28,656 nt of DNA from a virus: positions 1-28,656 of IMG/VR virus record IMGVR_UViG_3300023179_000394. The stretch is one strand, 5' to 3'. Position 1 is the stretch's first letter. Each line of letters begins with the position of its first letter. Positions 1 through 22,646 of this stretch are shown here, in pieces. The notes below the pieces were generated by a model. That model was not told where the DNA came from. It ran no database searches and saw nothing but the letters and a program-made list of their open reading frames with translations. Made by a program: the position numbers and the translations under genes.

Positions 1-87
1 AAAGTTATACATTTTCCAAAATGCTTTTTCAAATTCCTTATATAGTTTAACATACTGTTTTTGGTTTTGTTCTGCTTTATTTAACAT
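1..87 (-). CDS. Hypothetical protein, N-terminal part (cut by window edge)
   Basis: An open frame begins with ATG at 87-85 and runs off the left edge, giving 29 residues (MLNKAEQNQKQ... WKMYNF) rich in Lys, Gln and aromatics. I do not recognise it. The start is supported by a sigma70-like promoter whose -10 box lies exactly 6 bp upstream, the arrangement seen at many genes here. There is no Shine-Dalgarno sequence. Length and function cannot be judged from this fragment. Confidence 0.6.
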   Translation of the reverse strand, partial: MLNKAEQNQKQYVKLYKEFEKAFWKMYNF

Positions 88-93
88 ACCTAT

Positions 94-121
94 ATTATAT
101 TAGAATTTGGCATAAACACAA
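94..121 (-). promoter_or_regulatory. Sigma70-like promoter, leaderless type
   Basis: On the minus strand TTGTGT (121-116), a 16-bp spacer and TATAAT (99-94) are followed by 6 bp and then the ATG at 87. Predicted +1 is the A of the start codon. Confidence 0.6.
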
Positions 122-293
122 CTCCAAAATTGTTATTGACCAAATCCTATATTCCATTATACTATATGTACCACCTTAAGTTACGGCAGGAGGGGGGAGG
201 ACTGAACCTTTATAAAAAAAAGAGAGAAGTGGATGTGGTATTATAGGCAAAAATTAGGAAAGGGTCAAGCTTATTTATACTGAAATTGTTAGG
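122..293 (-). promoter_or_regulatory. Non-coding stretch with an orphan strong promoter and a polypyrimidine tract
   Basis: A near-consensus promoter reads leftwards: TTGACC (268-263), 17 bp, TATAAT (245-240), predicted +1 near 233. No start codon sits at +1, unlike its sister promoters. The predicted transcript starts with TCCACTT, has a U-run (about 218-211) and a C-rich tract (200-188), then AAGGTGG (about 180-174), which can pair with the 5-prime end with one bulge. No terminator is evident before the next promoter. A 20-codon frame from an ATG near 157 is too short to call. Confidence 0.4.
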
Positions 294-443
294 TTATTTC
301 CAAATCTTTTTGGTGATTAGGAAAATGGCCAAAAAAGCAACTACAATAAACCCTAATACTCCAAACTTACAAATTAGTAAGGGTTGATCATTTCCACTAA
401 TATGGTAAAGGGCATGTTCGAATAAGCAGATAGCACTTAACAT
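294..443 (-). CDS. Small membrane protein (49 aa)
   Basis: ATG at 443, TAA at 296-294. The product has a short N-terminal part (MLSAICLFEHALYHISG) and then one strong hydrophobic helix, about residues 27-43 (GVLGFIVVAFLAIFLIT), ending KKIWK. That pattern fits a single-pass inner-membrane peptide with a positive C-terminus. Function is unknown. A promoter with -10 TATAAT 6 bp upstream of the ATG, lying in the 3-prime end of the neighbouring gene, supports the start. There is no Shine-Dalgarno sequence. Confidence 0.6.
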   Translation of the reverse strand: MLSAICLFEHALYHISGNDQPLLICKFGVLGFIVVAFLAIFLITKKIWK

Positions 444-449
444 AAGTTT

Positions 450-477
450 ATTATATATTAAGCGTATTGTTTGGCAA
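450..477 (-). promoter_or_regulatory. Sigma70-like promoter, leaderless type
   Basis: TTGCCA (477-472), 16 bp, TATAAT (455-450), 6 bp, then ATG at 443. It overlaps the last codons of the upstream gene (stop at 458). Confidence 0.65.
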
Positions 478-787
478 GCTCTAAATCTATATTCTTTTGT
501 AGATACCTAGTAACAGAGGCAATCCTATCCCCGCCCGAATACACGTAAGTGGGGAAGCGGGGGTCAGGCCTCATCTCCGTCATATACATTAGGTATTCGT
601 GGATAAGGGTAAGATCATCTACCTTCAAACCATTAACAAAATCGACTATCGAAACCCGGGCAAACTCGATAACCTTAGATTCTCCGGATTCCCGGATTGT
701 ATAGAACTCACACTGTTCAGATACGTATTCGGTCAAGTTAGAGATTAACTTGTTATATATCTCTTGACCTTTCTTCCATCTAGCCAT
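458..787 (-). CDS. Hypothetical protein (109 aa)
   Basis: Starts MARWKKGQEIYNKLISN and ends ELAKQYA. It appears soluble and mostly helical, with no motif I recognise. It lies in a stretch (about 460-1210) visibly richer in G and C than the rest of the window, which may mark recent acquisition. The start is supported by a promoter with TATAAT exactly 6 bp upstream of the ATG. The promoter of the next gene is embedded in its 3-prime end. Function unknown. Confidence 0.7.
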   Translation of the reverse strand: MARWKKGQEIYNKLISNLTEYVSEQCEFYTIRESGESKVIEFARVSIVDFVNGLKVDDLTLIHEYLMYMTEMRPDPRFPTYVYSGGDRIASVTRYLQKNIDLELAKQYA

Positions 788-793
788 CAGTAT

Positions 794-821
794 ATTATAG
801 AGGGGATTAAGGATAATACAA
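794..821 (-). promoter_or_regulatory. Sigma70-like promoter, leaderless type
   Basis: TTGTAT (821-816), 16 bp, TATAAT (799-794), 6 bp, ATG at 787. Confidence 0.6.
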
Positions 822-825
822 GTCT

Positions 826-902
826 ATTATTCCCAAACGGGGATAATCGTTGTTTAAGTTCGTGTAGAAACTAGACGGGGATAATCGTTGTTTGGGGATA
901 AT
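826..902. repeat. Short repeat cluster upstream of a promoter
   Basis: A 19-bp direct repeat (ACGGGGATAATCGTTGTTT) occurs at 837-855 and 875-893. The core GGGGATAAT occurs three times (839-847, 877-885, 894-902), with a near-inverted copy ATTATTCCC at 826-834. The cluster fills the gap between two early genes just upstream of the promoter for the gene at 787. It could be an operator or small iteron array. TTATCCCC on the minus strand resembles part of a DnaA box but does not match its consensus. Confidence 0.6.
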
Positions 903-905
903 AGA

Positions 906-1175
906 TTAATAAGGGTCTTTATAGTATTCCCAGGGTTCACTACTCATACCATTCCACCGAATAGCGGGGTCGTGGTTAAAGTATTCGATTAAGATATCAC
1001 GGTCCGCCCCTTCCAGTTTACTGATCGAGGTGCGAAAGGCGTGGAGTCTCTTATACTGAGGGTCTGGGCTATAGGTACAGTAATCGTAGATCGTGGTATA
1101 CAGGTATCGTGCTTCCTGAGATAGCTTACTGTATTTCTCTACCGGGATTCCTATCTTTTCAATTTCACTTATCAT
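906..1175 (-). CDS. Hypothetical protein (89 aa)
   Basis: Starts MISEIEKIGIPVEKYSKL and ends EPWEYYKDPY. It is small, soluble and rich in Tyr and acidic residues, and I do not recognise the family. Like its neighbour at 458-787 it is more GC-rich than the rest of the window. The start has no Shine-Dalgarno sequence but sits 6 bp after the -10 box of a well-formed promoter. Confidence 0.65.
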   Translation of the reverse strand: MISEIEKIGIPVEKYSKLSQEARYLYTTIYDYCTYSPDPQYKRLHAFRTSISKLEGADRDILIEYFNHDPAIRWNGMSSEPWEYYKDPY

Positions 1176-1181
1176 TCTCGT

Positions 1182-1210
1182 ATTATGAAGGCCGCCGAAT
1201 TATTAGTCAA
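1182..1210 (-). promoter_or_regulatory. Sigma70-like promoter, leaderless type
   Basis: TTGACT (1210-1205) inside the recurrent context GCTTGACT, 17 bp, CATAAT (1187-1182), 6 bp, ATG at 1175. Confidence 0.65.
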
Positions 1211-1266
1211 GCATTTCCCTGTATTACCCACTATTTTTGTATTTCGCACTCTAACTACTTGTAGCT

Positions 1267-1425
1267 TCAGAATCCCGGGCTGATAGGCCAGTGCAAATTA
1301 TTACATTTTTCCTTAATTTTCCCCCAAATATCCTGTATTTTCCATATAATTTGTGTTAAAATCTCCAGGATTCCTACTAGTAAACACCCCCCTATAATAA
1401 GAAGAAAGCTTAATATCCTATACAT
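1267..1425 (-). CDS. Small membrane protein (52 aa)
   Basis: ATG at 1425, TGA at 1269-1267. Residues 4-23 (ILSFLLIIGGCLLVGILEIL) form one hydrophobic helix, followed by an amphipathic Lys-rich segment (IWGKIKEKC) and a short tail. It is probably a single-pass membrane peptide, perhaps acting at the envelope; function unknown. A late-type CTAAATA motif lies at 1453-1447, so this gene would have a leader of roughly 15 bases, unlike most genes here. Confidence 0.55.
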   Translation of the reverse strand: MYRILSFLLIIGGCLLVGILEILTQIIWKIQDIWGKIKEKCNNLHWPISPGF

Positions 1426-1446
1426 TTAGACAATAATAAAGGCCAG

Positions 1447-1453
1447 TATTTAG
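1447..1453 (-). promoter_or_regulatory. Late-type promoter motif CTAAATA
   Basis: CTAAATA follows the stop codon of the fibre gene ending at 1455 and precedes the small membrane gene starting at 1425. By T4 late-promoter geometry +1 would be near 1441. Confidence 0.4.
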
Positions 1454-1454
1454 C

Positions 1455-2066
1455 CTATCCAGCTATTTCCCACAAAGTAATGGAAGAAGTAAACCCACTA
1501 TTATTATCAGCTGATCTATTAAACCTCCATACATTATTAGAAAATGTTGTACCTACTTGAACTTTATATGTTATGGAAGAAGAGAGATTACCTATAGTCG
1601 GAGAATCAAGAAACTCTATAACTGAAGATTCTCCCCCATATTGAGATCCAAATCCGAATCCTCCAGCAAATCCGTTAAGCTGGCTTCCAGAAGTTGAATT
1701 GCCTACGGGAGTGCTTTCCCTTAAAAGTCTAAACAAAGGAAGAGCTCCATATCTATCCCAATTAATAATTGCTTTAACAATAATTTTACTGGTCAATGTT
1801 TTAGGTACTATGCTACAGCTCAAAGATCCAGAGCCTTGTCCTTCTGTTGTAAGAGTAGTAATATCTGACCATGAATTAGGATAAAGCTGAATATCATTAT
1901 ATTCTGTAAGATAGGTTTGTTTAACTTGAAGTAAGCATCCTGGACTTGCTGCTACTATACCCGAGGGACTGGTTTTATACGTTGTTGTTCCGTCTGAGTA
2001 TGGGATTATAGCTGACCCTTTATTAGGAATACCTGTGTTTAATTGATTTATCGTAACGTCAGACAT
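1455..2066 (-). CDS. Tail-fibre/appendage protein with shared MADVTI-type N-terminus (203 aa)
   Basis: It starts MSDVTINQLNTGIPNKGSAI. Residues 1-50 closely match the paralog at 2160-2780, both continuing PYSDG.TTYKTSPSGIVAASPGC. After about residue 55 the two diverge, although both end in EIAG. The rest is Ser/Thr/Gly/Asn-rich with a beta-strand pattern typical of phage fibre tips. The conserved head probably docks to a common virion base and the variable C-terminal part would contact host or other fibres; this is inferred from the paralog pattern. There is no Shine-Dalgarno sequence; TTAAATA lies 6 bp before the ATG. Confidence 0.75.
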   Translation of the reverse strand: MSDVTINQLNTGIPNKGSAIIPYSDGTTTYKTSPSGIVAASPGCLLQVKQTYLTEYNDIQLYPNSWSDITTLTTEGQGSGSLSCSIVPKTLTSKIIVKAIINWDRYGALPLFRLLRESTPVGNSTSGSQLNGFAGGFGFGSQYGGESSVIEFLDSPTIGNLSSSITYKVQVGTTFSNNVWRFNRSADNNSGFTSSITLWEIAG

Positions 2067-2072
2067 ATAGAT

Positions 2073-2079
2073 TATTTAA
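2073..2079 (-). promoter_or_regulatory. Late-type promoter motif TTAAATA
   Basis: TTAAATA then 6 bp (ATCTAT) then ATG at 2066. The rest of the gap up to 2159 holds no convincing gene. It has a perfect palindrome (CTAAAGCTTTAG, 2117-2128) flanked by GCG/CGC, and short Arg/Lys-rich frames that could be a relic of a gene end. Confidence 0.5.
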
Positions 2080-2159
2080 TTGACAAGGCTGGTAAATCTC
2101 AAACTGAACCGTGCGCTAAAGCTTTAGGATTACGCTTTCTTTTTTTAAGACAAAATAAA

Positions 2160-2780
2160 TTAACCAGCTATTTCTTGAACAGTTAGGAAGGTTGGAACAC
2201 TAGAAGAATATGATAGATTTGAATTAAAAGACCCTCCCAATACAGAGTTATAGGCAGAAGAATCTTCAGCCCACATCTGAAGTTTATAGCATATCTCATT
2301 AAGATTGGTTAGACTAGGTGAATCTAGATACATTCCAGAATGAGTTGCTGCTATTTGATTACCTGGTACATAGGTTGTAGTACCCGCTCTTAAAGCACTT
2401 CCTCGGCTATCTCCTAGAATTGTATCAGAAGATATTCCATTTATTACCCTTACCACCTTTAATGCTGAGACTTGTGTTCCTGTTCCGTAATTATAAGATA
2501 CAGAGCAAGAACCTGACCAATTAATTAAGAACTTACTGCTAGTAGAAGAGGGAGTTATGTAGGCTGAAAGTGTAGGAACGTCTACCCATATTTGACCAAA
2601 ATTATGGGTAAATATAGATGTTCTCACTACCTGCTTTACTTGTAAAATACACCCCGGACTAGCCGCCACTATACCCGAAGGACTGGTTTTGTACGTTGTA
2701 GAACCATCAGAATAAGGGATAACGGCTGTATTCTTATTCGGTATGCCTTGGTTTAATTGTCCTATTGTTACATCAGCCAT
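2160..2780 (-). CDS. Tail-fibre/appendage protein with MADVTI N-terminus (206 aa)
   Basis: It starts MADVTIGQLNQGIPNKNTAV and shares its first ~55 residues with the gene at 1455-2066, including SPSGIVAASPGCILQVKQ. The C-terminal two thirds are different, being Ser/Tyr/Asn-rich and beta-like, ending TVQEIAG. The pair looks like an ancient duplication with divergent distal domains. It is expected to be a virion appendage protein expressed late. There is no Shine-Dalgarno sequence; TTAAATA lies 5 bp before the ATG. Confidence 0.75.
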   Translation of the reverse strand: MADVTIGQLNQGIPNKNTAVIPYSDGSTTYKTSPSGIVAASPGCILQVKQVVRTSIFTHNFGQIWVDVPTLSAYITPSSTSSKFLINWSGSCSVSYNYGTGTQVSALKVVRVINGISSDTILGDSRGSALRAGTTTYVPGNQIAATHSGMYLDSPSLTNLNEICYKLQMWAEDSSAYNSVLGGSFNSNLSYSSSVPTFLTVQEIAG

Positions 2781-2785
2781 ATGAT

Positions 2786-2792
2786 TATTTAA
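2786..2792 (-). promoter_or_regulatory. Late-type promoter motif TTAAATA
   Basis: TTAAATA, 5 bp (ATCAT), ATG at 2780. It lies in the 31-bp gap after the preceding fibre gene. Confidence 0.5.
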
Positions 2793-2811
2793 TGACTAAG
2801 TAGGATATTAA

Positions 2812-3225
2812 TTAAATCTGTATCACGAGTACATTTATATCAGAGGGTTGAGCGTTACCTCCGGAATTTAGAACATATATCTTTACATATGTGGTAGCAC
2901 GCTCATAAACCATAACACCTCCCATAAGGCCGTTATAGTCGGTTGTAGCAAACACCAAATAGTTTGAATTAGGCAATGCATTGGTAAAAGTTATTGTATG
3001 AATGCCCCCCGAATAGGAATTAGACTGTACGTTATATGCATTTGAAATTGTATTGTTTGAATTAGCTTTGCAAAATGCTTTAATAAAATTAGGAATTATA
3101 CTTAGAGCGTTAGCTGTTAGGCTTGATACAAGAGTTTTATTTGTGGCCAGACCTGTAGAAAAAGGAATAAAATGGCTTCCAGAGGGAATACCTGAGTCTA
3201 ATTGTCCTATTGTTACGTCAGCCAT
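2812..3225 (-). CDS. Short tail-fibre protein with MADVTI N-terminus (137 aa)
   Basis: It begins MADVTIGQLDSGIPSGSHFIPFSTG, the same head module as the other fibre paralogs (hydrophobic VTI..L, then a P(F/Y)S.G turn). The distal part (about residues 55-137) is a short beta-rich domain containing ALPNSNYLVFATTDYNG and ending INVLVIQI. It has the look of a small tip domain. The start is 5 bp after CTAAATA and no Shine-Dalgarno sequence is present. Confidence 0.75.
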   Translation of the reverse strand: MADVTIGQLDSGIPSGSHFIPFSTGLATNKTLVSSLTANALSIIPNFIKAFCKANSNNTISNAYNVQSNSYSGGIHTITFTNALPNSNYLVFATTDYNGLMGGVMVYERATTYVKIYVLNSGGNAQPSDINVLVIQI

Positions 3226-3230
3226 ACCAA

Positions 3231-3237
3231 TATTTAG
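3231..3237 (-). promoter_or_regulatory. Late-type promoter motif CTAAATA
   Basis: CTAAATA, 5 bp (TTGGT), ATG at 3225. Confidence 0.5.
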
Positions 3238-3251
3238 GCTTTTTTAGTAAC

Positions 3252-4460
3252 TTATGTTAGTACGTCTATACAGGGAAAATACTTTAAAAACAAATCATTA
3301 GAACTATCTCTAAGCCTTTTTATCTTCCCATATATTTCATCATAAAAATTCCATGCCAAAGGAATAAACAGTATTTTGTCTGATTTTTCTTCTAGTAAAG
3401 ATGAAGTACTTTTTATTAAGATGTTAGATCCAGGAGTATAAAGACCTTGCTTCAAGGGATTGTCGTCCAATATATAATCTAAAGTTGCCTTTGAAAAGTT
3501 AAGTAATGTATTTCCTTTTGCAGCTGCTCCATATCCTATAATCTTAAAGCCTTTATTCCTATGGGTGTCTATAGTAGACTTAAAATCATATGCTATTTTT
3601 TCTGCATTTTCTGCGAATTTCTCGTATGTAGAAAGGTTATATAACCCCATTTCTTTTTCAAAAGTATTATTTAATAAGTCCTTATCATTATGTTTTGTTT
3701 TTGAGGCTTCAAATACATAGCTTAATCCGTGAATTTTATAAACACTAACATTGTTTAGAAAAAATTTACATTTTTCTAAAATCGTCTTCATTGACTTTGT
3801 ACTAAAGAAAGATACGTGCTCATGATAAATGGTATCAAATTCATTATTACCAATCATTGCAGCCTGAGAAGTTTGAATAAAGAGAAGCCCTTCCTCATCT
3901 AGCAAATCATAACACTGATTGAGAAAAGATGTTATATCATGGGTATGAGCAAAAACATTTTGAGCAATTATTAAGCTATATTTTCCGCTTATCTTATTTG
4001 AAGGGAAGAAATCACAAATAATATTATGATTCTTACTACTCCTTTCATATAAATTTTCTGCAGGATCTATTCCAAATGTTTCTACTCCTAGCTTTTTATA
4101 ATAGTCAAGCTGAGTACCATCATTGCATGCTATATCGAGTACAGATTTTGGCTTCTTGTTAAAAAGCTTTTCATATCTCTGTACTGTTTCATGGGCAAAA
4201 AAATTAAAATACTCATGTAGTGTGTTAGTTGTTCCGCTCACATAAAGATAATTCTTAAACATAAGTTCAGGATTTACAGCTACACTTAATTGCATATGAA
4301 AGCACTTGTGGCATAAATTAAGCTTTAAAGGATATTCCTCTAGGTACTCTTCTTCTTTATGATATAAATTTGCCAAAGGCTGTTCATTAAGGTCAAGCAA
4401 TTCATCTACAGGATTACCACAACACCTACATTCTAAAATTGTCTTAAAACTTTCACTCAT
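3252..4460 (-). CDS. Sugar C-methyltransferase, TylCIII/Methyltransf_13-14 type (402 aa)
   Basis: The domain order is that of NDP-hexose C-methyltransferases. An N-terminal zinc-binding region has cysteines at 11, 14, 50 and 53 (CRCC... CHKC). A class I SAM fold has motif I VLDIACNDG at 107-115. The family-typical IYHEHVSFF (211-219) is expected to hold the catalytic His/Tyr region. A C-terminal Rossmann-like domain carries GYGAAAKGNTLL (309-320). Length is normal for the family. It probably adds a methyl group to a carbon of a nucleotide-linked keto-sugar, which fits the epimerase gene just upstream (8-bp overlap, 4453-4460). It is the last gene of the glycan operon starting near 7766. The exact sugar cannot be inferred. 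Confidence 0.88.
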   Translation of the reverse strand: MSESFKTILECRCCGNPVDELLDLNEQPLANLYHKEEEYLEEYPLKLNLCHKCFHMQLSVAVNPELMFKNYLYVSGTTNTLHEYFNFFAHETVQRYEKLFNKKPKSVLDIACNDGTQLDYYKKLGVETFGIDPAENLYERSSKNHNIICDFFPSNKISGKYSLIIAQNVFAHTHDITSFLNQCYDLLDEEGLLFIQTSQAAMIGNNEFDTIYHEHVSFFSTKSMKTILEKCKFFLNNVSVYKIHGLSYVFEASKTKHNDKDLLNNTFEKEMGLYNLSTYEKFAENAEKIAYDFKSTIDTHRNKGFKIIGYGAAAKGNTLLNFSKATLDYILDDNPLKQGLYTPGSNILIKSTSSLLEEKSDKILFIPLAWNFYDEIYGKIKRLRDSSNDLFLKYFPCIDVLT

Positions 4461-6667: not shown

Positions 6668-6668
6668 A

Positions 6669-7531: not shown

Positions 7532-7766
7532 TGCGCTTCTTAAATGTTTTAATGTCTGGGGTAGGAATAACCTTCTCTTTCTTGACTTGAAGCGTCTTTG
7601 CTTTCTTAACAGCCTTGACATACTCTTCTTTAATCTTATGTCTATTTATATAAGCAGCTTTAGAATAGAGCTTATCCAATTCAATGTTAAAAACTACATC
7701 AGGGTAGATGTGTGCATTATTATAAAATGATAAGAACTCTCCTACAAATTTTTCGGCTTTATTCAT
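7518..7766 (-). CDS. Hypothetical basic protein, first gene of the glycan operon (82 aa)
   Basis: It reads MNKAEKFVGEFLSFYNNAH... and ends in a Lys/Arg-rich tail (KTFKKRNGKK). I do not recognise it. An in-frame TTG at 7799 would add 11 residues, but ATG 7766 lies 5 bp after CTAAATA, the same geometry as the fibre genes, so I prefer it. It begins the minus-strand run of overlapping genes ending at 3252, all probably transcribed from this late-type motif. Confidence 0.65.
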   Translation of the reverse strand: MNKAEKFVGEFLSFYNNAHIYPDVVFNIELDKLYSKAAYINRHKIKEEYVKAVKKAKTLQVKKEKVIPTPDIKTFKKRNGKK

Positions 7767-7771
7767 AATTT

Positions 7772-7778
7772 TATTTAG
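7772..7778 (-). promoter_or_regulatory. Late-type promoter motif CTAAATA (glycan operon)
   Basis: CTAAATA, 5 bp (AAATT), ATG at 7766. No sigma70-like promoter is evident here. It would drive the seven genes down to 3252. Confidence 0.5.
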
Positions 7779-7800
7779 TTCACTATTTATTTTTTTCAAT

Positions 7801-7808
7801 AAATAATA
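7801..7808 (+). promoter_or_regulatory. Late-type promoter motif AATAAATA
   Basis: AATAAATA lies 2 bp before the GTG start at 7811, closer than the usual 5-6 bp. Its spacing makes it the outlier of the set. Confidence 0.35.
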
Positions 7809-7810
7809 AT

Positions 7811-10559: not shown

Positions 10560-10565
10560 ACATTT

Positions 10566-10593
10566 AGTATAAGGGAATTTGAATTTTAGTCAA
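10566..10593 (-). promoter_or_regulatory. Sigma70-like promoter, leaderless type (radA-like operon)
   Basis: TTGACT (10593-10588), 16 bp, TATACT (10571-10566), 6 bp, ATG at 10559. Confidence 0.7.
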
Positions 10594-10650
10594 GATAATT
10601 TTTTTTATATGTTTAATATGTTTTGTGGTTCTTGTATTAAAAAGGAAAGT

Positions 10651-10658
10651 TATAAATA
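10651..10658 (+). promoter_or_regulatory. Late-type promoter motif TATAAATA
   Basis: An exact match to the T4 late -10 octamer TATAAATA, then 5 bp (TTCAA), then GTG at 10664. It decides the start of the plus-strand gene. Confidence 0.6.
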
Positions 10659-10663
10659 TTCAA

Positions 10664-11419
10664 GTGAAAATATTGGTTGGAGTTCTATCTTGTTTAGAGG
10701 CAACAGATGGTTTATATGAAATGGTTAAAAGAGAAGGTATTTTAAAGACGTGGGCATCAAAGAGTTATAGTGATGTAGAAATTGTTTATTTTTATGGAGT
10801 TCCTAATAGGGAACCGGAGGAAAGAGATGGTAATATTTTTGTTAACGCAAACGATGATTATGTTAATATTATATATAAAAATATAGAATTTTTTAGGTAT
10901 ATTTTAAAACATAAAGAATTTGATTATTTGTATAGAATTAATGCAAGTTCCTATTTAGATATAGAAAATCTTAAAAACTTTTTAAAAGACAAACCTAAAG
11001 AAAAATTTGTTGCAGGTAATTTGGTTCCTAAGTGGAATTATTTAGACCCTAATAAGAATTGTTTTATAGCTGGGTGTGGGTTTACTCTTTCAAGAGATGT
11101 TATCGAAAGTATTATTAATCTTATAGACTCTAGGCCTCACTTTATACATAAATTAGGAATACCTGGAAATGAAGATGATGTTATTATATCTTTAATGATA
11201 CATGAACTAGGAATTATTTTTCAAAATAATGTTCCTAGACATGATATATGGTTTTCATCTGATACCGGATGCAATGGACTAGAGAATATGAATGAAGAGG
11301 ACTATAAAAATAAATTTCTTATTAGATGTAAGGCTTGGCAATCTTCTCCGAGAGATGATCATTTAATAATGCAGAATGTATTTGAAATAAAGAAAAAAAG
11401 ATCCGGTTTTTTAACGTAG
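10664..11419 (+). CDS. Glycosyltransferase-like protein, GT31/fringe-like layout (251 aa)
   Basis: I place the start at GTG 10664 (MKILVGVLSCLEATDGLY), 5 bp after TATAAATA; the frame stays open to 10625. Layout resembles galactosyltransferase/fringe-type enzymes: a repeating 'fetch' region, YLYRINASSYLDIENL where the metal-binding DDD usually sits, FIAGCGFTLSRDVIESI, and a GNEDDVIISLM acidic loop. The usual DxD is replaced by Asn-Ala-Ser, so metal binding is uncertain. No membrane helix is seen. It stands alone on the plus strand, divergent from the RadA-like operon. Family call is by pattern and moderate. Confidence 0.62.
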   Translation: MKILVGVLSCLEATDGLYEMVKREGILKTWASKSYSDVEIVYFYGVPNREPEERDGNIFVNANDDYVNIIYKNIEFFRYILKHKEFDYLYRINASSYLDIENLKNFLKDKPKEKFVAGNLVPKWNYLDPNKNCFIAGCGFTLSRDVIESIINLIDSRPHFIHKLGIPGNEDDVIISLMIHELGIIFQNNVPRHDIWFSSDTGCNGLENMNEEDYKNKFLIRCKAWQSSPRDDHLIMQNVFEIKKKRSGFLT

Positions 11420-11433
11420 AACCGGAAACTACG
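11393..11433 (-). terminator. Rho-independent terminator able to form an H-type pseudoknot
   Basis: On the minus strand CCGGTT (11425-11420) pairs with AACCGG (11408-11403), followed by ATC and seven T (11399-11393). Interleaved with it, CGTAG (11433-11429) can pair with CTACG (11419-11415). The loops would be 3, 0 and 6 nt, a compact H-type pseudoknot. It overlaps the stop codon of the plus-strand gene. Confidence 0.6.
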
Positions 11434-11540
11434 ATGATGACTAGTTACTTTTGGGGAACTAGCTTACCCTCATGAGCCCGGGAGCGGTCGCGTTGCATGG
11501 AAACCATGACTGCACCGTCTGTACTCAATAACTGTCGGCC
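11393..11540 (-). ncRNA. Putative small structured RNA (about 145 nt)
   Basis: This gene-free stretch is visibly more GC-rich than its surroundings. It folds locally on the minus strand into CATGG/CCATG (11508-11504 with 11500-11496) and CTAGTT/AACTAG (11462-11457 with 11446-11441), then the terminator pseudoknot. A possible -10 GATAAT at 11552-11547 places +1 at 11540, but its -35 is poor. A 24-codon frame crossing it has no supporting start signal. No known RNA family is recognised, and tRNA features (T-loop, CCA) are absent. Confidence 0.5.
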
Positions 11541-11808: not shown

Positions 11809-11815
11809 ACGATGA

Positions 11816-11843
11816 AGTATAACGGAATTTAAGATTACGTCAA
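11816..11843 (-). promoter_or_regulatory. Sigma70-like promoter overlapping the upstream stop codon
   Basis: TTGACG (11843-11838), 16 bp, TATACT (11821-11816), 7 bp, ATG at 11808. The TGA stop of the upstream methyltransferase (QKKA-stop) lies within the -35 box. Confidence 0.6.
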
Positions 11844-12532: not shown

Positions 12533-12537
12533 TAATT

Positions 12538-12543
12538 TATTTA
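12538..12543 (-). promoter_or_regulatory. Late-type promoter motif TAAATA
   Basis: TAAATA, 5 bp (AATTA), ATG at 12532. It shares the 45-bp divergent spacer with an opposing late motif. Confidence 0.5.
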
Positions 12544-12566
12544 AAATACATTAATACAATAGCAAA

Positions 12567-12572
12567 TAAATA
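12567..12572 (+). promoter_or_regulatory. Late-type promoter motif TAAATA
   Basis: TAAATA, 5 bp (ATTAT), ATG at 12578. Confidence 0.5.
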
Positions 12573-12577
12573 ATTAT

Positions 12578-13244: not shown

Positions 13245-13560
13245 AAGAACAGTATACCACCTCTGGTCTTGTTATGCAAGGAACCCAATCAAAAAACTTA
13301 TTACCTTCTTTATCATAAAAAGTCTGCGAGCCTTTATATACATTAGGAGGGTCCATCTTAAGCATATCAACCTCCAGTGCAGCTAAAGTCTCTTTAATTT
13401 GATAATCCCTGATAATATCTTCGTTGGTTTTCTCTTTTTTAGGAGCATCAAATTGTTTTAGAAGCTCTGCAAAATTATTAGGTCCAACAGAATAAACTCC
13501 TTTATGTGAGCTAACGCTAAAAGGATTTAGAAATGTAAAAAGCTTTGAAAAAATTTGCAT
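13231..13560 (-). CDS. Hypothetical protein (109 aa)
   Basis: I place the start at ATG 13560 (MQIFSKLFTFLNPFSVSS); the frame is open to 13623, where it overlaps another gene, and a GTG at 13575 with AGGAGG close upstream is an alternative. The middle is charged (DAPKKEKTNEDIIRDYQIK), and the end (EGNKFFDWVPCITRPEVVYC) looks beta-rich. Function unknown. Confidence 0.55.
   Translation of the reverse strand: MQIFSKLFTFLNPFSVSSHKGVYSVGPNNFAELLKQFDAPKKEKTNEDIIRDYQIKETLAALEVDMLKMDPPNVYKGSQTFYDKEGNKFFDWVPCITRPEVVYCSYGKN
13251..13279 (-). promoter_or_regulatory. Sigma70-like promoter, leaderless type
   Basis: TTGCAT (13279-13274), 17 bp, TATACT (13256-13251), 6 bp, ATG at 13244. It lies within the 3-prime end of the upstream gene. 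Confidence 0.6.
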
Positions 13561-13855: not shown

Positions 13856-13861
13856 AAATTT

Positions 13862-13890
13862 AATATAGAGAGTATTTAAATTGTAATCAA
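13862..13890 (-). promoter_or_regulatory. Sigma70-like promoter, leaderless type
   Basis: TTGATT (13890-13885), 17 bp, TATATT (13867-13862), 6 bp, ATG at 13855. Confidence 0.55.
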
Positions 13891-14204: not shown

Positions 14205-14209
14205 ATTGA

Positions 14210-14216: not shown

Positions 14217-14256
14217 TATCCACATGCACAAAAAAGTGCTAATTGGGTCCCACATT

Positions 14257-14421: not shown

Positions 14422-14427
14422 TTTACT

Positions 14428-14456
14428 AGTATATTAGCCTCACTTTTTACATGCAA
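14428..14456 (-). promoter_or_regulatory. Sigma70-like promoter, leaderless type
   Basis: TTGCAT (14456-14451), 17 bp, TATACT (14433-14428), 6 bp, ATG at 14421. It overlaps the end of the upstream gene. Confidence 0.6.
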
Positions 14457-14667: not shown

Positions 14668-14668
14668 T

Positions 14669-15294: not shown

Positions 15295-15295
15295 A

Positions 15296-15871
15296 TTATT
15301 CAATCTCCTTGAAATCAACATACATAGCAACATTCTTAATGCTTGGATGTATATTTTTAATCCTAAAGCCTGGAGAGCATTTGCACATTGAACAACCAGC
15401 GTAAGGGCTAAACGTTCTGTTATAAAACCCGCTCTTATTCAACCACTCAGACAGTGTCATATAGAAACCAGGCATATCCCAGGTAGTCTCGCTATCAACA
15501 GTCTTAGCCCTATACTCAATCTCAGAGCTAAGAATATTGAGATACATATTCATAATCTTAACCTCTTTTCGGTTATAGATTTTCCATTCTTTATCCAATT
15601 CTAGATCTTTACCTTGAGGGCCAGGAGCAAGTTTGATATGATAATAGTTATGAGAAGTATCAAGTTCGTGAGGATCGCGCGTTCCTGAAACGAATAGAAA
15701 ATTATTCTTGGTTGAACGGCGATCAGAATACCTGGACCGAAAACTTACATTTGCTTGAAGCTTACCTTTAGGAAACCTAATCAAATTGGCAGTATCGTGT
15801 ACATCAAAAGTAAAGTCTTTATCGTGAATACGATCAAACACGTTATTGTCAATGCTTTGTTCTGTCATCAT
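15296..15871 (-). CDS. Hypothetical protein with Cys-rich motif (191 aa)
   Basis: It starts MMTEQSIDNNVFDRIHDKDF. Near the C-terminus FSPYAGCSMCKCSPGFRI (about 153-170) gives three closely spaced Cys. I recall AGCSMCxCSPGF as a conserved signature of an uncharacterised family in phages and plasmids; metal binding is plausible but unproven. It heads a run of coupled genes down to 14440. The start sits 6 bp after TACAAT of its promoter. Confidence 0.65.
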   Translation of the reverse strand: MMTEQSIDNNVFDRIHDKDFTFDVHDTANLIRFPKGKLQANVSFRSRYSDRRSTKNNFLFVSGTRDPHELDTSHNYYHIKLAPGPQGKDLELDKEWKIYNRKEVKIMNMYLNILSSEIEYRAKTVDSETTWDMPGFYMTLSEWLNKSGFYNRTFSPYAGCSMCKCSPGFRIKNIHPSIKNVAMYVDFKEIE

Positions 15872-15877
15872 ACTAAT

Positions 15878-15905
15878 ATTGTAGAGGAATATATATTTTG
15901 ATCAA
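15878..15905 (-). promoter_or_regulatory. Sigma70-like promoter overlapping the upstream stop codon
   Basis: TTGATC (15905-15900), 16 bp, TACAAT (15883-15878), 6 bp, ATG at 15871. The TGA ending the upstream gene (AAKKA-stop) lies inside the -35 box. Confidence 0.6.
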
Positions 15906-16406: not shown

Positions 16407-16412
16407 GCTCAA

Positions 16413-16440
16413 ATTATGAATGAATATAGGCTATAGTCAA
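16413..16440 (-). promoter_or_regulatory. Sigma70-like promoter, leaderless type
   Basis: TTGACT (16440-16435) in AAAAGCTTGACT, 16 bp, CATAAT (16418-16413), 6 bp, ATG at 16406. Confidence 0.6.
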
Positions 16441-16447
16441 GCTTTTC

Positions 16448-16537: not shown

Positions 16538-16543
16538 GAAGAT

Positions 16544-16572
16544 ATTATAAAATAAAAATTAAAAAAGGTCAA
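16544..16572 (-). promoter_or_regulatory. Sigma70-like promoter overlapping the upstream stop and a possible terminator
   Basis: TTGACC (16572-16567), 17 bp, TATAAT (16549-16544), 6 bp, ATG at 16537. The upstream gene's TGA (FEKA-stop) is inside the -35 box. AAAAGG/CCTTTT around it plus a T-run could also act as a weak terminator. Confidence 0.65.
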
Positions 16573-18388: not shown

Positions 18389-18686
18389 TATTGCCTTTAG
18401 TAGTAGAATGTTTTATATCTTTAGCATGAACAAGAGGTGTGTTGCTACCACCAGAATATGAGCCCCATTTAAGAGATTCTTCTGGATAATTATTAACAAA
18501 CTCCAGATCACCTTCCGGATTATATTGTAATCCTAGCAAGAATGCTTTTATTTGTGGTAAGACTTCATCCAAAGTTTCTGCTGTAAATTCATGAGTAATT
18601 TTACTTTGAACCCAATTATTAGTCTCTGCAGACTGTAATTCACCATAAGGTAAATGCTCACCTGTTAATGTAAATTTAACTGCCAT
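18381..18686 (-). CDS. Hypothetical protein (101 aa)
   Basis: Start chosen at ATG 18686 (MAVKFTLTGEHLPYGELQSA), with AGGAG 7 bp upstream; the frame is open to 18704. The N-terminal half is beta-like, the middle helical (ETLDEVLPQIKAFLLGL), then NPEGDLEFVNN. It may be a small single-domain protein with no known role. Confidence 0.6.
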   Translation of the reverse strand: MAVKFTLTGEHLPYGELQSAETNNWVQSKITHEFTAETLDEVLPQIKAFLLGLQYNPEGDLEFVNNYPEESLKWGSYSGGSNTPLVHAKDIKHSTTKGNSE

Positions 18687-18867
18687 TTTCCTTCTCCTCT
18701 CCAAGTACTCTCATATGCTGTAATGCAAACTTAATATCTTTTTCTGGATACTTTTTTAAACGAAGAAAGTCTTCTATGGATCCGTGGTCTTCCTCAATCC
18801 AGTAATCAGGAAATCCATACATCCACCCCGAAGGTGGATCTATTAAAAGCTTTTTCTTTAATCTCAC
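18676..18867 (-). CDS. Conserved hypothetical phage protein (63 aa)
   Basis: MRLKKKLLIDPPSGWMYGFP continues DYWIEEDHGSIEDFLRLKKY. The pattern DPPSGWxYGFP is a motif I recall from small conserved phage proteins. Function unknown. It overlaps the upstream and downstream genes, so translation is coupled. Confidence 0.62.
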   Translation of the reverse strand: MRLKKKLLIDPPSGWMYGFPDYWIEEDHGSIEDFLRLKKYPEKDIKFALQHMRVLGEEKENGS

Positions 18868-19100
18868 TTCTTCTTTTTCTTCTTCTTATCTACAGAAGTA
18901 AGCTCAAATTGACCATTAACTGCATTAGTAATAACATAGTTAATACCAATGTTAAAAAACTGGTCATTAGTTGCAACCTTACGGCCTAAATCAGTTATTT
19001 GAGCAATATATTCGTCTGGACCTGTAATATCAGCCTCATAATATTTTACAGGTCTAAAATGGCCTACTTTAATCTTTGGCAACGTCTTGGTCTTTTTCAT
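18864..19100 (-). CDS. Hypothetical protein with Lys tail (78 aa)
   Basis: MKKTKTLPKIKVGHFRPVKY, then DITGPDEYIAQITDLGRKVA and a beta-like region, ending in a run of seven Lys. The basic ends suggest nucleic-acid contact; no family is recognised. It is the first gene of an operon of ten overlapping small genes reaching 16569. The start lies 6 bp after TATATT. Confidence 0.65.
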   Translation of the reverse strand: MKKTKTLPKIKVGHFRPVKYYEADITGPDEYIAQITDLGRKVATNDQFFNIGINYVITNAVNGQFELTSVDKKKKKKK

Positions 19101-19106
19101 AGTTTA

Positions 19107-19134
19107 AATATAAATGTAAGTTAAAAAAAATCAA
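19107..19134 (-). promoter_or_regulatory. Sigma70-like promoter, leaderless type (ten-gene operon)
   Basis: TTGATT (19134-19129), 16 bp, TATATT (19112-19107), 6 bp, ATG at 19100. The -35 box lies in the terminator of the upstream small RNA. Confidence 0.55.
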
Positions 19135-19242
19135 GAGAAGAGGAACGATTAGAAACTTAGGTCTTCGCCTTCTATGCTATGTGCCTAGCGCGCAAGAGGT
19201 CTAACCTATTCAGCCAACGCAAATGTTGTCTGCCTCTCTCCT
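19123..19242 (-). ncRNA. Putative small structured RNA (about 120 nt) with intrinsic terminator
   Basis: The minus-strand transcript predicted from the promoter at 19278-19249 would start at 19242. Its first ten bases (AGGAGAGAGG, 19242-19233) pair with CCTCTTCTCTT (19143-19133), with one bulge, closing the whole RNA. The helix is followed by TGA and eight T (19130-19123), an intrinsic terminator. Inside are AGGT/ACCT and GCTA/TAGC hairpins. The stretch is more GC-rich than its neighbours and has no credible ORF. It lacks tRNA features. The family is not recognised. Confidence 0.6.
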
Positions 19243-19248
19243 ATTCTT

Positions 19249-19278
19249 ATTATACTATCTTTTACAATAGGGTGCCAG
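19249..19278 (-). promoter_or_regulatory. Sigma70-like promoter of the small RNA
   Basis: CTGGCA (19278-19273), 18 bp, TATAAT (19254-19249), then 6 bp to the predicted RNA start at 19242. The -35 is imperfect (4 of 6) and the spacer is 18 bp. It overlaps the end of the upstream gene. Confidence 0.5.
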
Positions 19279-19758
19279 CTGCTCTTGAATTTTTTTATAA
19301 CCTTTAGTAGCTACAGTATCTTTCATAGCCCCTTCATTCTTTTCTTGAGCTAGCTCAAAAATTTTATAGAGAATGCTTGATGCAGGGTTAACAAATTTCC
19401 AAAGCTGTTCAGCTGAAATAATTTGATCTTTTTCTAGTAGATAAACCTCTTGAACAATTTCTTGAAGCTTATCAGCAATAACTATAAGCATTTCTCTATC
19501 TGCATTCTGCTCTTCCTTTGTTCGCATCGGCATTAAAGGCTGCTCCTTGGAACGTCCCCATGCATACTCGCTATATTGATTAAAAAGTTCTTTATGCTCG
19601 ATAGAACCATTTTTAACTACACTTTGAATTTCATCAAATTGCTGTTGACCTCTACGCCACACACTTCCATCATCTGAATACTCATAAGTCCAATCATGAT
19701 TGCGAAGCTTCTTCCAAAATTCGTTTAAGGAAGGTAATTTTGTTTCAGTATCTATCAT
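19255..19758 (-). CDS. Hypothetical protein (167 aa)
   Basis: I choose ATG 19758 (MIDTETKLPSLNEFWKKLRN) with a strong AAGGAG 7 bp upstream; the open frame reaches 19821 but that part overlaps another gene. The N-terminal part (HDWTYEYSDDGSVWRRGQQQ) has the 'HDW.Y..SDD' look of a family common on phages and plasmids. The C-terminal part is helical. Function unknown. It follows the upstream TAA by 1 bp. Confidence 0.65.
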   Translation of the reverse strand: MIDTETKLPSLNEFWKKLRNHDWTYEYSDDGSVWRRGQQQFDEIQSVVKNGSIEHKELFNQYSEYAWGRSKEQPLMPMRTKEEQNADREMLIVIADKLQEIVQEVYLLEKDQIISAEQLWKFVNPASSILYKIFELAQEKNEGAMKDTVATKGYKKIQEQLAPYCKR

Positions 19759-19759
19759 A

Positions 19760-19954
19760 TTAAAACTCCTTAAAGCTTGTAAGAAAAATTTGATGAGGCT
19801 GACCCCCAAAACGAGAAGCAAATACTTTGTCTCCTCTAAATGATTCTATTTGTTCGATACGCTCTATCTTACCATGAACCAGGTATACAGCTTCTTGGTC
19901 AAGCTCATCTCTTTCCATAGTGTTTAAAATATCACGAAGTCTGGCGTATGTCAT
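19760..19954 (-). CDS. Hypothetical phage protein (64 aa)
   Basis: MTYARLRDILNTMERDELDQ then EAVYLVHGKIERIEQIESF and GQPHQIFLTSF. The layout (MTYxxLxxxLxxLxxxxLDQ.V.....) is like a common small phage protein family of unknown role. The start overlaps the upstream stop by 4 bp. Confidence 0.62.
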   Translation of the reverse strand: MTYARLRDILNTMERDELDQEAVYLVHGKIERIEQIESFRGDKVFASRFGGQPHQIFLTSFKEF

Positions 19955-20235
19955 TTTACTATTGCAAGACCGTGTTGATCGATATTAACAAGGTCATACT
20001 CCTTTAAAATAATTTGTTTAACTGTGGGGTATGAGAGAAACGTTTTGGCATCTTTCTCAGAGTTGAAATAATACTGTTTATCGCGCTTTCCGGTAGCAAG
20101 ACAAGTACCACCTCCAACCTCCTTACCTCCAAGCTTATCAGCAAGAATACCTAAACGCTCTTCTTGTGTACTATAACGGTACTGCTTTTTAATATATACT
20201 AGCAAACTAACTTTGTTGGCTTTGTTTTTCATCAT
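19951..20235 (-). CDS. Hypothetical protein (94 aa)
   Basis: MMKNKANKVSLLVYIKKQYR... has a Gly-rich turn (LGGKEVGGGTCLATGKRD) followed by KQYYFNSEKDAKTFLSY and a beta end. The C-terminal half has the strand-helix-strand pattern of small phage regulators; no family is certain. The start lies 6 bp after a consensus TATAAT. Confidence 0.65.
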   Translation of the reverse strand: MMKNKANKVSLLVYIKKQYRYSTQEERLGILADKLGGKEVGGGTCLATGKRDKQYYFNSEKDAKTFLSYPTVKQIILKEYDLVNIDQHGLAIVK

Positions 20236-20241
20236 ACCTAT

Positions 20242-20269
20242 ATTATAGAGGAAGCTAAAAATCAGGCAA
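20242..20269 (-). promoter_or_regulatory. Sigma70-like promoter, leaderless type
   Basis: TTGCCT (20269-20264), 16 bp, TATAAT (20247-20242), 6 bp, ATG at 20235. The -35 lies in the last codons of the upstream gene. Confidence 0.65.
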
Positions 20270-20477
20270 CATTATTTTTACGAACAATATCTACTTTACA
20301 ACTCAAAGAGTTACATCCTGTTATATCTTTTACAGCCCTACTAGCCTTGCTATTAAAATTACCAAAACCTACAGGTATCTCATCAAACCATGAAAATTTG
20401 GTTAAATCAACAATTATTTCTGTTGGAAGATCTGTTCTATTGGATTCATACTTAATGTCATATAAACGCCAAAGCAC
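20262..20477 (-). CDS. Hypothetical protein, GTG start (71 aa)
   Basis: GTG 20477 (MLWRLYDIKYESNRTDLPTE) is 5 bp after ATAAATA, the same geometry as other late-type starts, and lies just past the upstream TAA; the frame itself extends to 20531. The protein is mixed strand and helix, with KDITGCNSLSCKVDIVRKN near the end. No family is recognised. Confidence 0.5.
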   Translation of the reverse strand: MLWRLYDIKYESNRTDLPTEIIVDLTKFSWFDEIPVGFGNFNSKASRAVKDITGCNSLSCKVDIVRKNNVA

Positions 20478-20481
20478 ATTA

Positions 20482-20721
20482 TTATTTATCAGATAATTCA
20501 GATTCCTTCTCCTTTGCTTCTTTATAGTCAAGATGTTGTGAGGAGTCTAAAATAAAATCCAAAAACATATCGAACAGCTCATCAAGCTCTTTATTCTTTC
20601 GTATAAGGTCTCTGGTATGAGGAGAAAGCTTTTGAAGAAATGTACTGAACAGATTATTATATTTTGTAATAAAACATCTATCTATTACGTCTGTAACGTC
20701 TTCTTTTGTAATTTTTTTCAA
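20482..20721 (-). CDS. Hypothetical helical protein, TTG start (79 aa)
   Basis: TTG at 20721 (MKKITKEDVTDVIDRCFITK) with AGGA about 9 bp upstream. It is helical and charged (LIRKNKELDELFDMFLDFIL), ending KEKESELSDK. There is no early in-frame ATG, so the TTG start is likely. Its first 44 bp overlap the small membrane frame at 20678-20818. Function unknown. Confidence 0.5.
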   Translation of the reverse strand: MKKITKEDVTDVIDRCFITKYNNLFSTFLQKLSPHTRDLIRKNKELDELFDMFLDFILDSSQHLDYKEAKEKESELSDK

Positions 20722-20818
20722 ACTTATGATCCTGATACTTGTTATATATTTTTAAAATAATTACAGCTACAAATAATAAACAACTTACCAATAGTTCAAT
20801 AAACTTCCTCACCATCAT
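20678..20818 (-). CDS. Possible small membrane protein (46 aa)
   Basis: ATG 20818, TAG 20680-20678. MMVRKFIELLVSCLLFVAVI then ILKIYNKYQDHKFEKNYKRR: one hydrophobic helix and a strongly basic tail. It fills the gap between two better-supported genes, but overlaps both (23 and 44 bp), so it could be a chance frame. Confidence 0.4.
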   Translation of the reverse strand: MMVRKFIELLVSCLLFVAVIILKIYNKYQDHKFEKNYKRRRYRRNR

Positions 20819-21074
20819 TATTTAGTTCAAACCCTTCATCTTCTAAAATTAATTGAGCTCCATCTATTGCAATATTAATAGCGTCTTCGTATTCTCCGCT
20901 ATCAAGACATTCTACAATAGCTTCTATCTCACTAGCAACAGTTACAGTATCAGGAAGGTCATCAATAGAAAGAGGACAGTGTTTATTAATTTCTAGATTT
21001 AATAGCCATCGTGCCACTTCATAGTTGTCATGACCCGCATCGATATATGCTTTTACTTTAGAAGTTGTAATCAT
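20796..21074 (-). CDS. Hypothetical acidic protein (92 aa)
   Basis: Start chosen at ATG 21074 (MITTSKVKAYIDAGHDNYEV), which overlaps the end of the upstream gene; the frame is open to 21146. Helical repeats of the type EIEAIVECLDSGEYEDAINIA, then an acidic tail (LEDEGFELNNDGEEVY). It is probably a small all-helical protein. Function unknown. Confidence 0.6.
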   Translation of the reverse strand: MITTSKVKAYIDAGHDNYEVARWLLNLEINKHCPLSIDDLPDTVTVASEIEAIVECLDSGEYEDAINIAIDGAQLILEDEGFELNNDGEEVY

Positions 21075-21435
21075 AAAAATAAGTGGCTTGTTCGCCTTTC
21101 TGATGAAGACCAAACCGACTATATTGGGTTTGCTGTCCAACCTCACACCACCTCTTGGCTTTATTTCTCCAGCTAAGAACTTTAACTTTGTTATTAGGAT
21201 TAGAAGTTAATTTATATTCTTGATCATGATTATCAGAATAATGCCCGCAAAAGCCTCCGGGATGAAAGTCTTTAGGTTTTCGCGTACATTCAGCATCGAG
21301 CTCGCGAATCTTAATCCTTCGAGGGCTAATAATCTCAACAACTTCCCAAGCATCTCGATCAGTATAATGAAACTCTGTAACATGCTGACCTACAAACGGC
21401 TTCTCTTCTGGTAAGTTTGATGTCTTAACTTTCAT
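21058..21435 (-). CDS. Conserved hypothetical protein (125 aa)
   Basis: MKVKTSNLPEEKPFVGQHVT... A beta-rich small protein with WEVVEIISPRRIKIREL and later KVKVLSWRNKAKRWCEVG. This matches my memory of a family common in phages and bacteria ('VVEI.SPKRI.V... RKNGRW...G'), role unknown. The start lies 6 bp after TATACT of a clear promoter. Confidence 0.65.
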   Translation of the reverse strand: MKVKTSNLPEEKPFVGQHVTEFHYTDRDAWEVVEIISPRRIKIRELDAECTRKPKDFHPGGFCGHYSDNHDQEYKLTSNPNNKVKVLSWRNKAKRWCEVGQQTQYSRFGLHQKGEQATYFYDYNF

Positions 21436-21441
21436 ACATCT

Positions 21442-21469
21442 AGTATATTGGAATTTAGAATTTAGGCAA
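21442..21469 (-). promoter_or_regulatory. Sigma70-like promoter, leaderless type
   Basis: TTGCCT (21469-21464), 16 bp, TATACT (21447-21442), 6 bp, ATG at 21435. It overlaps the stop of the nuclease gene. Confidence 0.65.
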
Positions 21470-22610
21470 CTCTTATTTTAAAAGGTCTGAAATGATTTAT
21501 ACGGCGCTGGAGTGAATGATTACGAATATCAAACATTACATACCGATTATTATTCTTATCAGTCTGAATAAGATCTGGTTTATTTTCTAGATAATTTAAC
21601 ATAGCCTTTCTATCATACTCTACAGCTAATCCTGTATCTGTATCTACATGTATCATACGATGATTTACCTTATCTTTAATTTCATCTGGATATACAAAGA
21701 AGATATAGTTATTCATATTACCTTTTACATCGGCAGTATAACTATACTTCCACGAATCTTTTTTGAATTCAAAATCAATACCTTGTAACTGTTTATCGCG
21801 CCTATCATGAAACCAAGTTACTTCATTATAAGTGCGCTTAAGATATGAATGAACAAGCTCTTCAGCTCTAACACCCTTACGAACATTAGGTTTATCACCA
21901 AACGCGCCGATTACTGACTTAGTCCATTTTGAAGTAACTCTATCGCTCATTTTCTTATTATCGTTGGACGAAGATAATAGTTCAACTTCTTTATGATATT
22001 CTTCTCTTAATTCTTTAAACTTCTCTAGCCAATTCTCTCGCTTATCTTGAAACACTTGAACCTCACCGGTCTCACAAGTAATAAGAATAGTTAAATCTGA
22101 AATAGCAATACCTGTTCGCTCTTCAAACATGTAACTATAAGCTGTAGCCTGCATAAAATAATCCCATATAAACTCTTTCTTCTTAAGCTTTGAGCTAGTC
22201 TTAAAGTCTATAATAGAAGACTTTCCTTCATACTTTCCAATACAATCAACCTGACCGGCAACACGTAACTCATTGGAATATAAATGTTGTTCAAGACAAA
22301 TAATATCAGATATCTTATCTAATAAAGGGGTAAACCTATTAAACATCTCTCCAATACTTTCAGTGATAGGTTCTTTCTTGAGATACTGTTCACAATTATT
22401 ATGAAAGGAGTTACCGCGAATAGTAGCCGCTTTACTAATCTCTTTGGCTACTTCTTCTCCAACCTGTTCGCGCCATCTCTTTAATTGTTCTTTTTTACGT
22501 TTAGATATAACGGTTGTGACTGAAGGGTATTTAGTACCGTCAGGTGTAACGTAATATCTTGTTCCCGATTCCAGAGTTACTTTCTGTAACACCGGCAGTT
22601 GTATGTTCAT
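21462..22610 (-). CDS. PD-(D/E)XK exonuclease (Cas4/RecB-like) with possible second nuclease-like domain (382 aa)
   Basis: Residues ~15-200 carry the set expected of lambda-exo/Cas4/RecB-type nucleases: RGNSFH (His70), CLEQ (Glu107), GQVD (Asp122), IIDFKTS (Asp135, Lys137) and QATAY (Gln154, Tyr158). The Cys cluster of Cas4 is absent. Residues ~223-382 are an extra domain. Its RAEELVHSYL (Glu250/251), GIDFEF (Asp279) and TADVKGN (Asp294, Lys296) also look like a PD-(D/E)XK core, but this second call is weaker. It probably processes DNA ends in phage recombination or degrades host DNA. The start lies 7 bp after TAACAT. Confidence 0.8.
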   Translation of the reverse strand: MNIQLPVLQKVTLESGTRYYVTPDGTKYPSVTTVISKRKKEQLKRWREQVGEEVAKEISKAATIRGNSFHNNCEQYLKKEPITESIGEMFNRFTPLLDKISDIICLEQHLYSNELRVAGQVDCIGKYEGKSSIIDFKTSSKLKKKEFIWDYFMQATAYSYMFEERTGIAISDLTILITCETGEVQVFQDKRENWLEKFKELREEYHKEVELLSSSNDNKKMSDRVTSKWTKSVIGAFGDKPNVRKGVRAEELVHSYLKRTYNEVTWFHDRRDKQLQGIDFEFKKDSWKYSYTADVKGNMNNYIFFVYPDEIKDKVNHRMIHVDTDTGLAVEYDRKAMLNYLENKPDLIQTDKNNNRYVMFDIRNHSLQRRINHFRPFKIRVA

Positions 22611-22617
22611 TTCCTAT

Positions 22618-22646
22618 ATGTTAGGTGACTTTACTAATATAGTCAA
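22618..22646 (-). promoter_or_regulatory. Sigma70-like promoter (nuclease gene)
   Basis: TTGACT (22646-22641) in AAAAAAGCTTGACT, 17 bp, TAACAT (22623-22618), 7 bp, ATG at 22610. Part of it lies in a 31-bp repeat. Confidence 0.6.

Follow-up and report, generated by a model that had tools for sequence, protein, structure and literature searches.

The stretch of DNA analysed here, called the window throughout, is a 28,656-base IMG/VR virus record without host genome (IMGVR_UViG_3300023179_000394). Minus-strand genes at both of its ends make up tail-fibre modules, and sixteen minus-strand genes are preceded by sigma70-like promoters, termed early promoters here, with a -10 box placed 6 or 7 bp from the start codon. 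These genes include 10559, encoding a DnaB/RadA-like ATPase, and 22610, encoding a T4-type PD-(D/E)XK exonuclease with its closest homologs in cyanophages and pelagiphages (about 40-48%). Promoters of a second class, built on a T4-type late box, stand similarly close to their start codons. The arrangement is described below as a probable layout for leaderless mRNAs, that is, transcripts with the start codon at their first nucleotide (+1).

Relatives of the window were found by means of the exonuclease and the DnaB/RadA-like protein. One of them, the 97.7-kb contig G003, encodes homologs of the T4-superfamily markers gp23 (capsid) and gp20 (portal), about 33% identical to those of cyanophages. 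No capsid gene lies in the window, which is tied to this superfamily through shared early genes. The capsid protein of G003 matches at least 600 contigs in IMG/VR, among them the 229.7-kb record G007, in which the early region is present too. Genes for gp55-like late sigma factors were found in G007, G008, G009, G011, G020 and G021, and they occur together with TATAAATA-like late boxes, as is typical of the T4 superfamily. Far-T4 phages have been described as a divergent, uncultured and freshwater-rich group of this superfamily with capsid proteins about 15% longer than those of near-T4 and cyano-T4 phages (Roux et al. 2015, PMC4360716). The G003 capsid is likewise divergent and long, with 498 amino acids against 420 in HTVC008M, a Pelagibacter phage of the Kyanoviridae. 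Given this capsid and the freshwater setting, the window fits as a segment of an uncultured, Far-T4-like phage genome within the T4 superfamily. Two scans of bacterial genome contigs for a host revealed no close relative.

When the sites were extracted and read, a sigma70-like promoter was present at all sixteen genes, in the places given by an earlier sequence-only reading of the window, with a spacer of 16 or 17 bp and a gap from -10 to ATG of 6 bp at fourteen genes and of 7 bp at genes 11808 and 22610. That reading had also described a TTG-type -35 and a TANNNT-like -10 at each gene; the exact pattern was recovered at 14 of the 16, genes 1175 and 16406 carrying CATAAT instead. All of these promoters lie on the minus strand. 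Those with a 16-bp spacer and a 6-bp gap include the promoters of gene 87 (88-121), whose open reading frame (ORF) extends past the window edge, gene 443 (444-477) and gene 787 (788-821), the same promoter being found in G003 ahead of a gene beginning MAR. A 17-bp spacer and a 6-bp gap are seen at genes 1175 (1176-1210), 13244 (13245-13279), 13855 (13856-13890) and 14421 (14422-14456), and the 7-bp gap is combined with a 16-bp spacer at gene 11808 (11809-11843) and with a 17-bp spacer at gene 22610 (22611-22646). The promoter of gene 10559 (10560-10593) has counterparts in G001, G002 and G004, where the orthologs have retained the spacing as well as the N-terminal MNIK, and a second, weaker promoter of the early class at 10636-10664 (-), about 80 bp 5' of it, feeds the same gene. 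The remaining promoters precede genes 15871 (15872-15905), 16406 (16407-16440), 19100 (19101-19134; G001 has the same promoter at the corresponding gene), 20235 (20236-20269) and 21435 (21436-21469), and ORF 16537 (16538-16572), a weak gene call because this ORF has just 29 codons.

On the minus strand of the window, TTG-N19/20-TANNNT-N(d)-ATG was matched 12 times with d = 6 and twice with d = 7, and no other d between 0 and 30 gave more than 3 matches. The sequence-only reading had staked its proposal on an excess of this spacing over shuffled controls, and such an excess was obtained: for d = 6 and d = 7 summed, dinucleotide shuffles averaged 1.42 and never exceeded 5, far below the 14 observed, and the early spacing of the window is therefore not a product of chance. 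The distance from the first T of the -10 box to the start codon is fixed at 12 bp, as in leaderless genes of bacteria.

The search of relatives that had been called for extended the 6-bp peak to nine related records. It was seen in G001, G002, G003, G004, G006 and G007, and was absent from T4, HTVC008M and five genomes of cyanophage type (P-HM2, Syn9, S-PM2, BUCT-ZZ01 and C48C1). With a weight matrix restricted to the region from -35 to -10, with no ATG in the profile and the tested genome left out of training, an ATG stood at 6 bp in 42 of the 52 best sites, compared with a mean of 1.04 at other distances. In records fetched later, the corresponding counts were 12 of 21 sites in G020, 13 of 20 in G021 and 5 of 6 in G022 (30/47 together), with a small bias arising from the fact that each of these records had been found via one promoter or small-RNA match. 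A scan of the collection gave 55 contigs matching the motif of correct length, in six of which the first ATG lay at 6 bp, and a seventh, G003, in which an earlier ATG precedes the one at 6 bp; a control motif with a 15-bp spacer, one base short, matched 9 contigs, none with an ATG at that distance. Five of these seven contigs (G003, G004, G007, G021 and G022) have the clade promoter set in common, and the other two, L223 and L233, open very short frames only. Many other contigs of the scan had their ATG at a distance of at least 20 bp, often with a Shine-Dalgarno (SD) sequence. Beyond the sigma70 consensus, early promoters have a 16-bp spacer as the rule and commonly a TTCC element just 5' of the -10 (80% have C at -16). 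This element, spanning -18 to -15, might serve as an operator or reflect a property of the host sigma.

Start codons located 6 bp past the early -10 were ATG in 74 cases, GTG in 4 and TTG in 1. Leaderless mRNAs in E. coli strongly favour AUG (PMC9031893), and the near-exclusive use of ATG therefore supports a leaderless reading. A T at -1 was found at 41 of 67 early starts (61%) and at 84 of 120 late starts (70%), compared with 251 of 613 elsewhere (41%). At early-class promoters without an ATG at the expected place, the same +1 position was occupied by A in 18 and by G in 5 of 25 cases (23/25 purine). The T at -1 followed by a purine at +1 thus fits a pyrimidine-purine initiator at the start codon. 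Early genes also begin with a tandem ATGATG in 18 of 67 cases (27%), versus 14 of 463 other genes (3%; P about 1e-9), and such starts are seen across the clade and, in the window, at 15871, 16406 and 20235. Possibly, the tandem serves as insurance against start-site slippage, as a transcript begun 3 nt late would keep an in-frame AUG at its 5' end.

The sequence-only reading had confined the leaderless layout to the early promoter set; it holds for the early genes, but this scope proved too narrow and an early-only rule was rejected, as late genes are laid out alike. For ORFs of at least 60 codons in 11 clade records, the distance from TAAATA to ATG was 5 bp in 118 cases and 6 bp in 54, with about 4 at other distances; in the same records 38 late GTG starts were found at 5 bp, and TTG was not used. 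Among 80 capsid-gene relatives (874 kb), TAAATA-N5-ATG occurred 154 times and TAAATA-N6-ATG 55 times, with a shoulder extending over 7-12 bp. In T4, the late box TATAAATA occupies positions -13 to -6 relative to the transcription start (PMC1524935), and a 5-bp gap would therefore set +1 on the start codon. T4 itself uses the same box and gp55 has homologs in the clade, but in T4 and the cyanophages the late ATG peak lies about 20-28 bp past the box. A general T4-like trait was rejected, since T4, P-HM2, Syn9, S-PM2, BUCT-ZZ01 and C48C1 are without both peaks or nearly so; in five further isolates from several groups (Campylobacter CP20, SH-Ab 15599, Vibrio K444, CC2 and S-RSM4), as well as in Mosig and Melnitz, each genome gave 1-6 late matches. 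HTVC008M shares with the clade a small late peak (12 TAAATA-N5-ATG starts) and a gene for the ribosomal protein bS21, and differs from it by the missing early peak and by the SDs carried by most of its genes. As an isolated pelagiphage, HTVC008M (L110-L112) is a cultured system in which the leaderless late spacing can be tested.

In the window, 13 late starts of leaderless spacing were found, including those of tail-fibre genes beginning MADVTI. On the minus strand, the box AATAAATA (26825-26837) lies 5 bp from the ATG of tail-fibre gene 26824 (MADVTI...), and ATTAAATA is found at the same distance ahead of genes 25518 (25519-25531) and 24548 (24549-24561), both beginning MADVTI, and of gene 2780 (2781-2793), and at 6 bp ahead of tail-fibre gene 28475 (28476-28489) and gene 2066 (2067-2080). 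Gaps of 5 bp to ATG also separate CCTAAATA (3226-3238) from gene 3225, TTTAAATA (12533-12545) from methyltransferase gene 12532 and ACTAAATA (7767-7779) from an 82-codon frame starting at 7766. On the plus strand, AATAAATA precedes the ATG of gene 12578 (12565-12577) and the GTG of glycosyltransferase gene 7811 (7798-7810), and TATAAATA (10651-10663) precedes a GTG at 10664 that opens a galactosyltransferase ORF of 251 codons, each with a 5-bp gap. Early and late classes are read by different sigma factors and both are spaced to the start codon, and they therefore converge on the same predicted +1.

Good SD sequences are present at the internal genes 8482 (on the plus strand), 15294, 16946, 18686 and 19758, in agreement with the sequence-only reading. 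Its companion claim, that promoter-linked genes lack them, also stood, as expected of leaderless genes, but the absence is largely forced by the -10 box, which at -12 to -7 occupies the room an SD would need, and it is not independent evidence. Misplaced start codons were rejected as an explanation, as no downstream in-frame SD-linked start was found within the first 30 codons of 14 of the 16 early genes. In a crude count of genes, both leaderless classes combined accounted for 24/52 in the window, 104/298 in G007 and 69/173 in G020, compared with 13/180 in HTVC008M and 3/249 in T4.

Early-type promoters also precede small RNAs. That of family 1 lies at 135-163 (+) in the window, in divergent orientation, with a predicted +1 at 170 from which the core ACCACCTTAAGTTACGGCAGGAGGGGGGAGGACTG (170-215, +) extends. 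This core is almost invariant in nine copies from seven records, with homologs in G003, G004, G007 (two), G020 (two), G021 and G022. Indels and the loss of the ATG argue against family 1 being coding. Family 2, a strongly folded RNA of 146 nt in G003 and G020 (L022:5490-5635 (+) and L250:7141-7286 (+)), is 98% identical over its whole length between distant phages; its 11-bp closing helix begins exactly at the predicted +1, it ends in TTTTTT, and it corresponds to no Rfam family. Family 3 lies at 11364-11535 (-) in the window, directly past the ORF of gene 11808, has a terminator-like end and has homologs in G001, G003, where it has its own early promoter, and G007. An Rfam scan of the window gave no match.

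The fixed spacings are conserved throughout the clade and across both promoter classes, and homologs of gp55 accompany them. The explanation that we consider very probable on these sequence patterns is that Far-T4-like phages share a leaderless design across the clade, at host-sigma and phage-sigma promoters alike. At early genes, TTGAC-16/17-TATAAT would be bound by the host RNA polymerase and its main sigma, with a start 7 bp past the -10, on the A of the ATG; for late genes, polymerase carrying the gp55-like phage sigma would bind the T4-type TAAATA and start 6 bp past the box, on the start codon. To translate the first gene of such a unit, a 70S ribosome would attach directly to the AUG at the 5' end of the message, and the operon-internal genes would depend on SD sequences or coupling. 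The placement of +1 on the start codon, as already proposed in the sequence-only reading, seems the best reading of the near-exclusive ATG, the T at -1, the purine at +1 and the helix of small RNA family 2. Selection may have favoured this layout for its fit to the host ribosome or to the state of the infected cell. Several points weigh against the proposed design. The usual start-site preference is assumed for the host polymerase, and a fixed +1 would give the late genes with a 6-bp gap a leader of 1 nt. Roughly between one third and two fifths of the crudely called genes in G007 and G020 show the layout, the others being internal or unexplained. Moreover, at G004 36182, G021 12080 and G021 12436 a leader carrying an SD-like AAGGA separates the early promoter from the ATG, and the leaderless rule is therefore not absolute.

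The transcripts could be leaderless without being an invention of the phage, if a host lineage rich in leaderless mRNAs had its gene layout copied, a reading that deserves serious though tentative consideration. In Actinobacteria and Deinococcus-Thermus, about 20% of genes or more are leaderless, with a TANNNT located some 12 bp ahead of the start codon (PMC3160421, PMC12340547), and phage phiYS40, which infects Thermus, offers a precedent. However, published host guesses for Far-T4 phages disagree (PMC4360716), iPHoP points marine Far-T4 to Flavobacteriales (PMC13037479), in which leaderless genes are rarely detected (PMC3160421), and the internal genes of the phage itself have ordinary SDs. 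The chromosomal leaderless genes of these bacteria resemble the phage ones in the position of the -10 and in the lack of an SD, but their -35 is often absent or optional, whereas a strong TTGAC -35 and a 16-17 bp spacer are standard in the early genes of the phage.

Very short leaders of about 1-5 nt, produced by a start-site choice shifted a few bases in this host or by the late sigma, are unlikely. The split of the late gap between 5 and 6 bp, the shoulder in the capsid relatives and the 7-bp gap at two early genes would suit them, but the early promoters peak sharply at 6 bp, the T at -1 with A or G at +1 fits initiation at the start codon, and the helix of small RNA family 2 begins there. 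It is very improbable that the boxes are weak or unused, with true promoters far upstream and the pattern arising from AT-rich spacing near starts. These genomes are indeed AT-rich and many of their genes tightly packed; the shuffles, however, do not reproduce the pattern, and T4 and HTVC008M, equal in AT content, lack the early peak, on which grounds chance or AT-richness was rejected. The common TTCC element and the occurrence of the same promoters ahead of non-coding RNAs also speak against unused boxes.

Among known systems, the leaderless design proposed here is close to that of phiYS40, a large lytic phage with leaderless transcripts for many genes, a comparison drawn from the published account and not by sequence: most middle and late mRNAs of phiYS40 are leaderless, with IF2 raised and IF3 lowered (PMC3594737). 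The host of phiYS40 is known and leaderless-rich, however, whereas in this T4-superfamily clade host-sigma early and gp55-type late promoters would both be leaderless. The description of Far-T4 phages (PMC4360716) differs in that promoters and leaderless genes are unmentioned and T4 transcription-control genes were undetected there, while a gp55-like sigma was found here. Literature searches returned no report of a leaderless design for T4-superfamily or Far-T4 phages. Phage-wide leaderless transcription is already known from phiYS40; what is new is the leaderless layout in an abundant phage group and in both transcription classes.

Genes that could act on the ribosome were also searched for. 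Besides HTVC008M, phage-encoded bS21 was found at G007:C1:39344-39463, G009:C1:9883-10008 and G020:C1:84906-85037, and a search of HTVC008M and of 14 records from the clade or related to it detected no IF3 homolog. Small RNA family 1 is a conserved early RNA with repeated SD-like G-runs, and one may guess at a role as anti-SD decoy. Its duplex energy with the 16S tail is modestly better than that of shuffles, 1-34% of which equal it, and as these energies are not convincing the decoy role was not retained. A leaderless programme for the whole infection, in which bS21, located near the anti-SD, and small RNA family 1 would bias host ribosomes, the RNA depressing SD-dependent host messages, is quite doubtful.

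Leaderless mRNAs in phages are commonly viewed as rarities, while here two unrelated promoter classes share a predicted +1 in a clade represented in hundreds of metagenome contigs. If the leaderless design holds true, it would become testable how phage messages are translated without SDs, whether the layout marks the translation style of an abundant host, and whether gene finders place starts wrongly in such phages. The layout also provides a simple sequence signature with which to find further leaderless phages and to narrow down their host.

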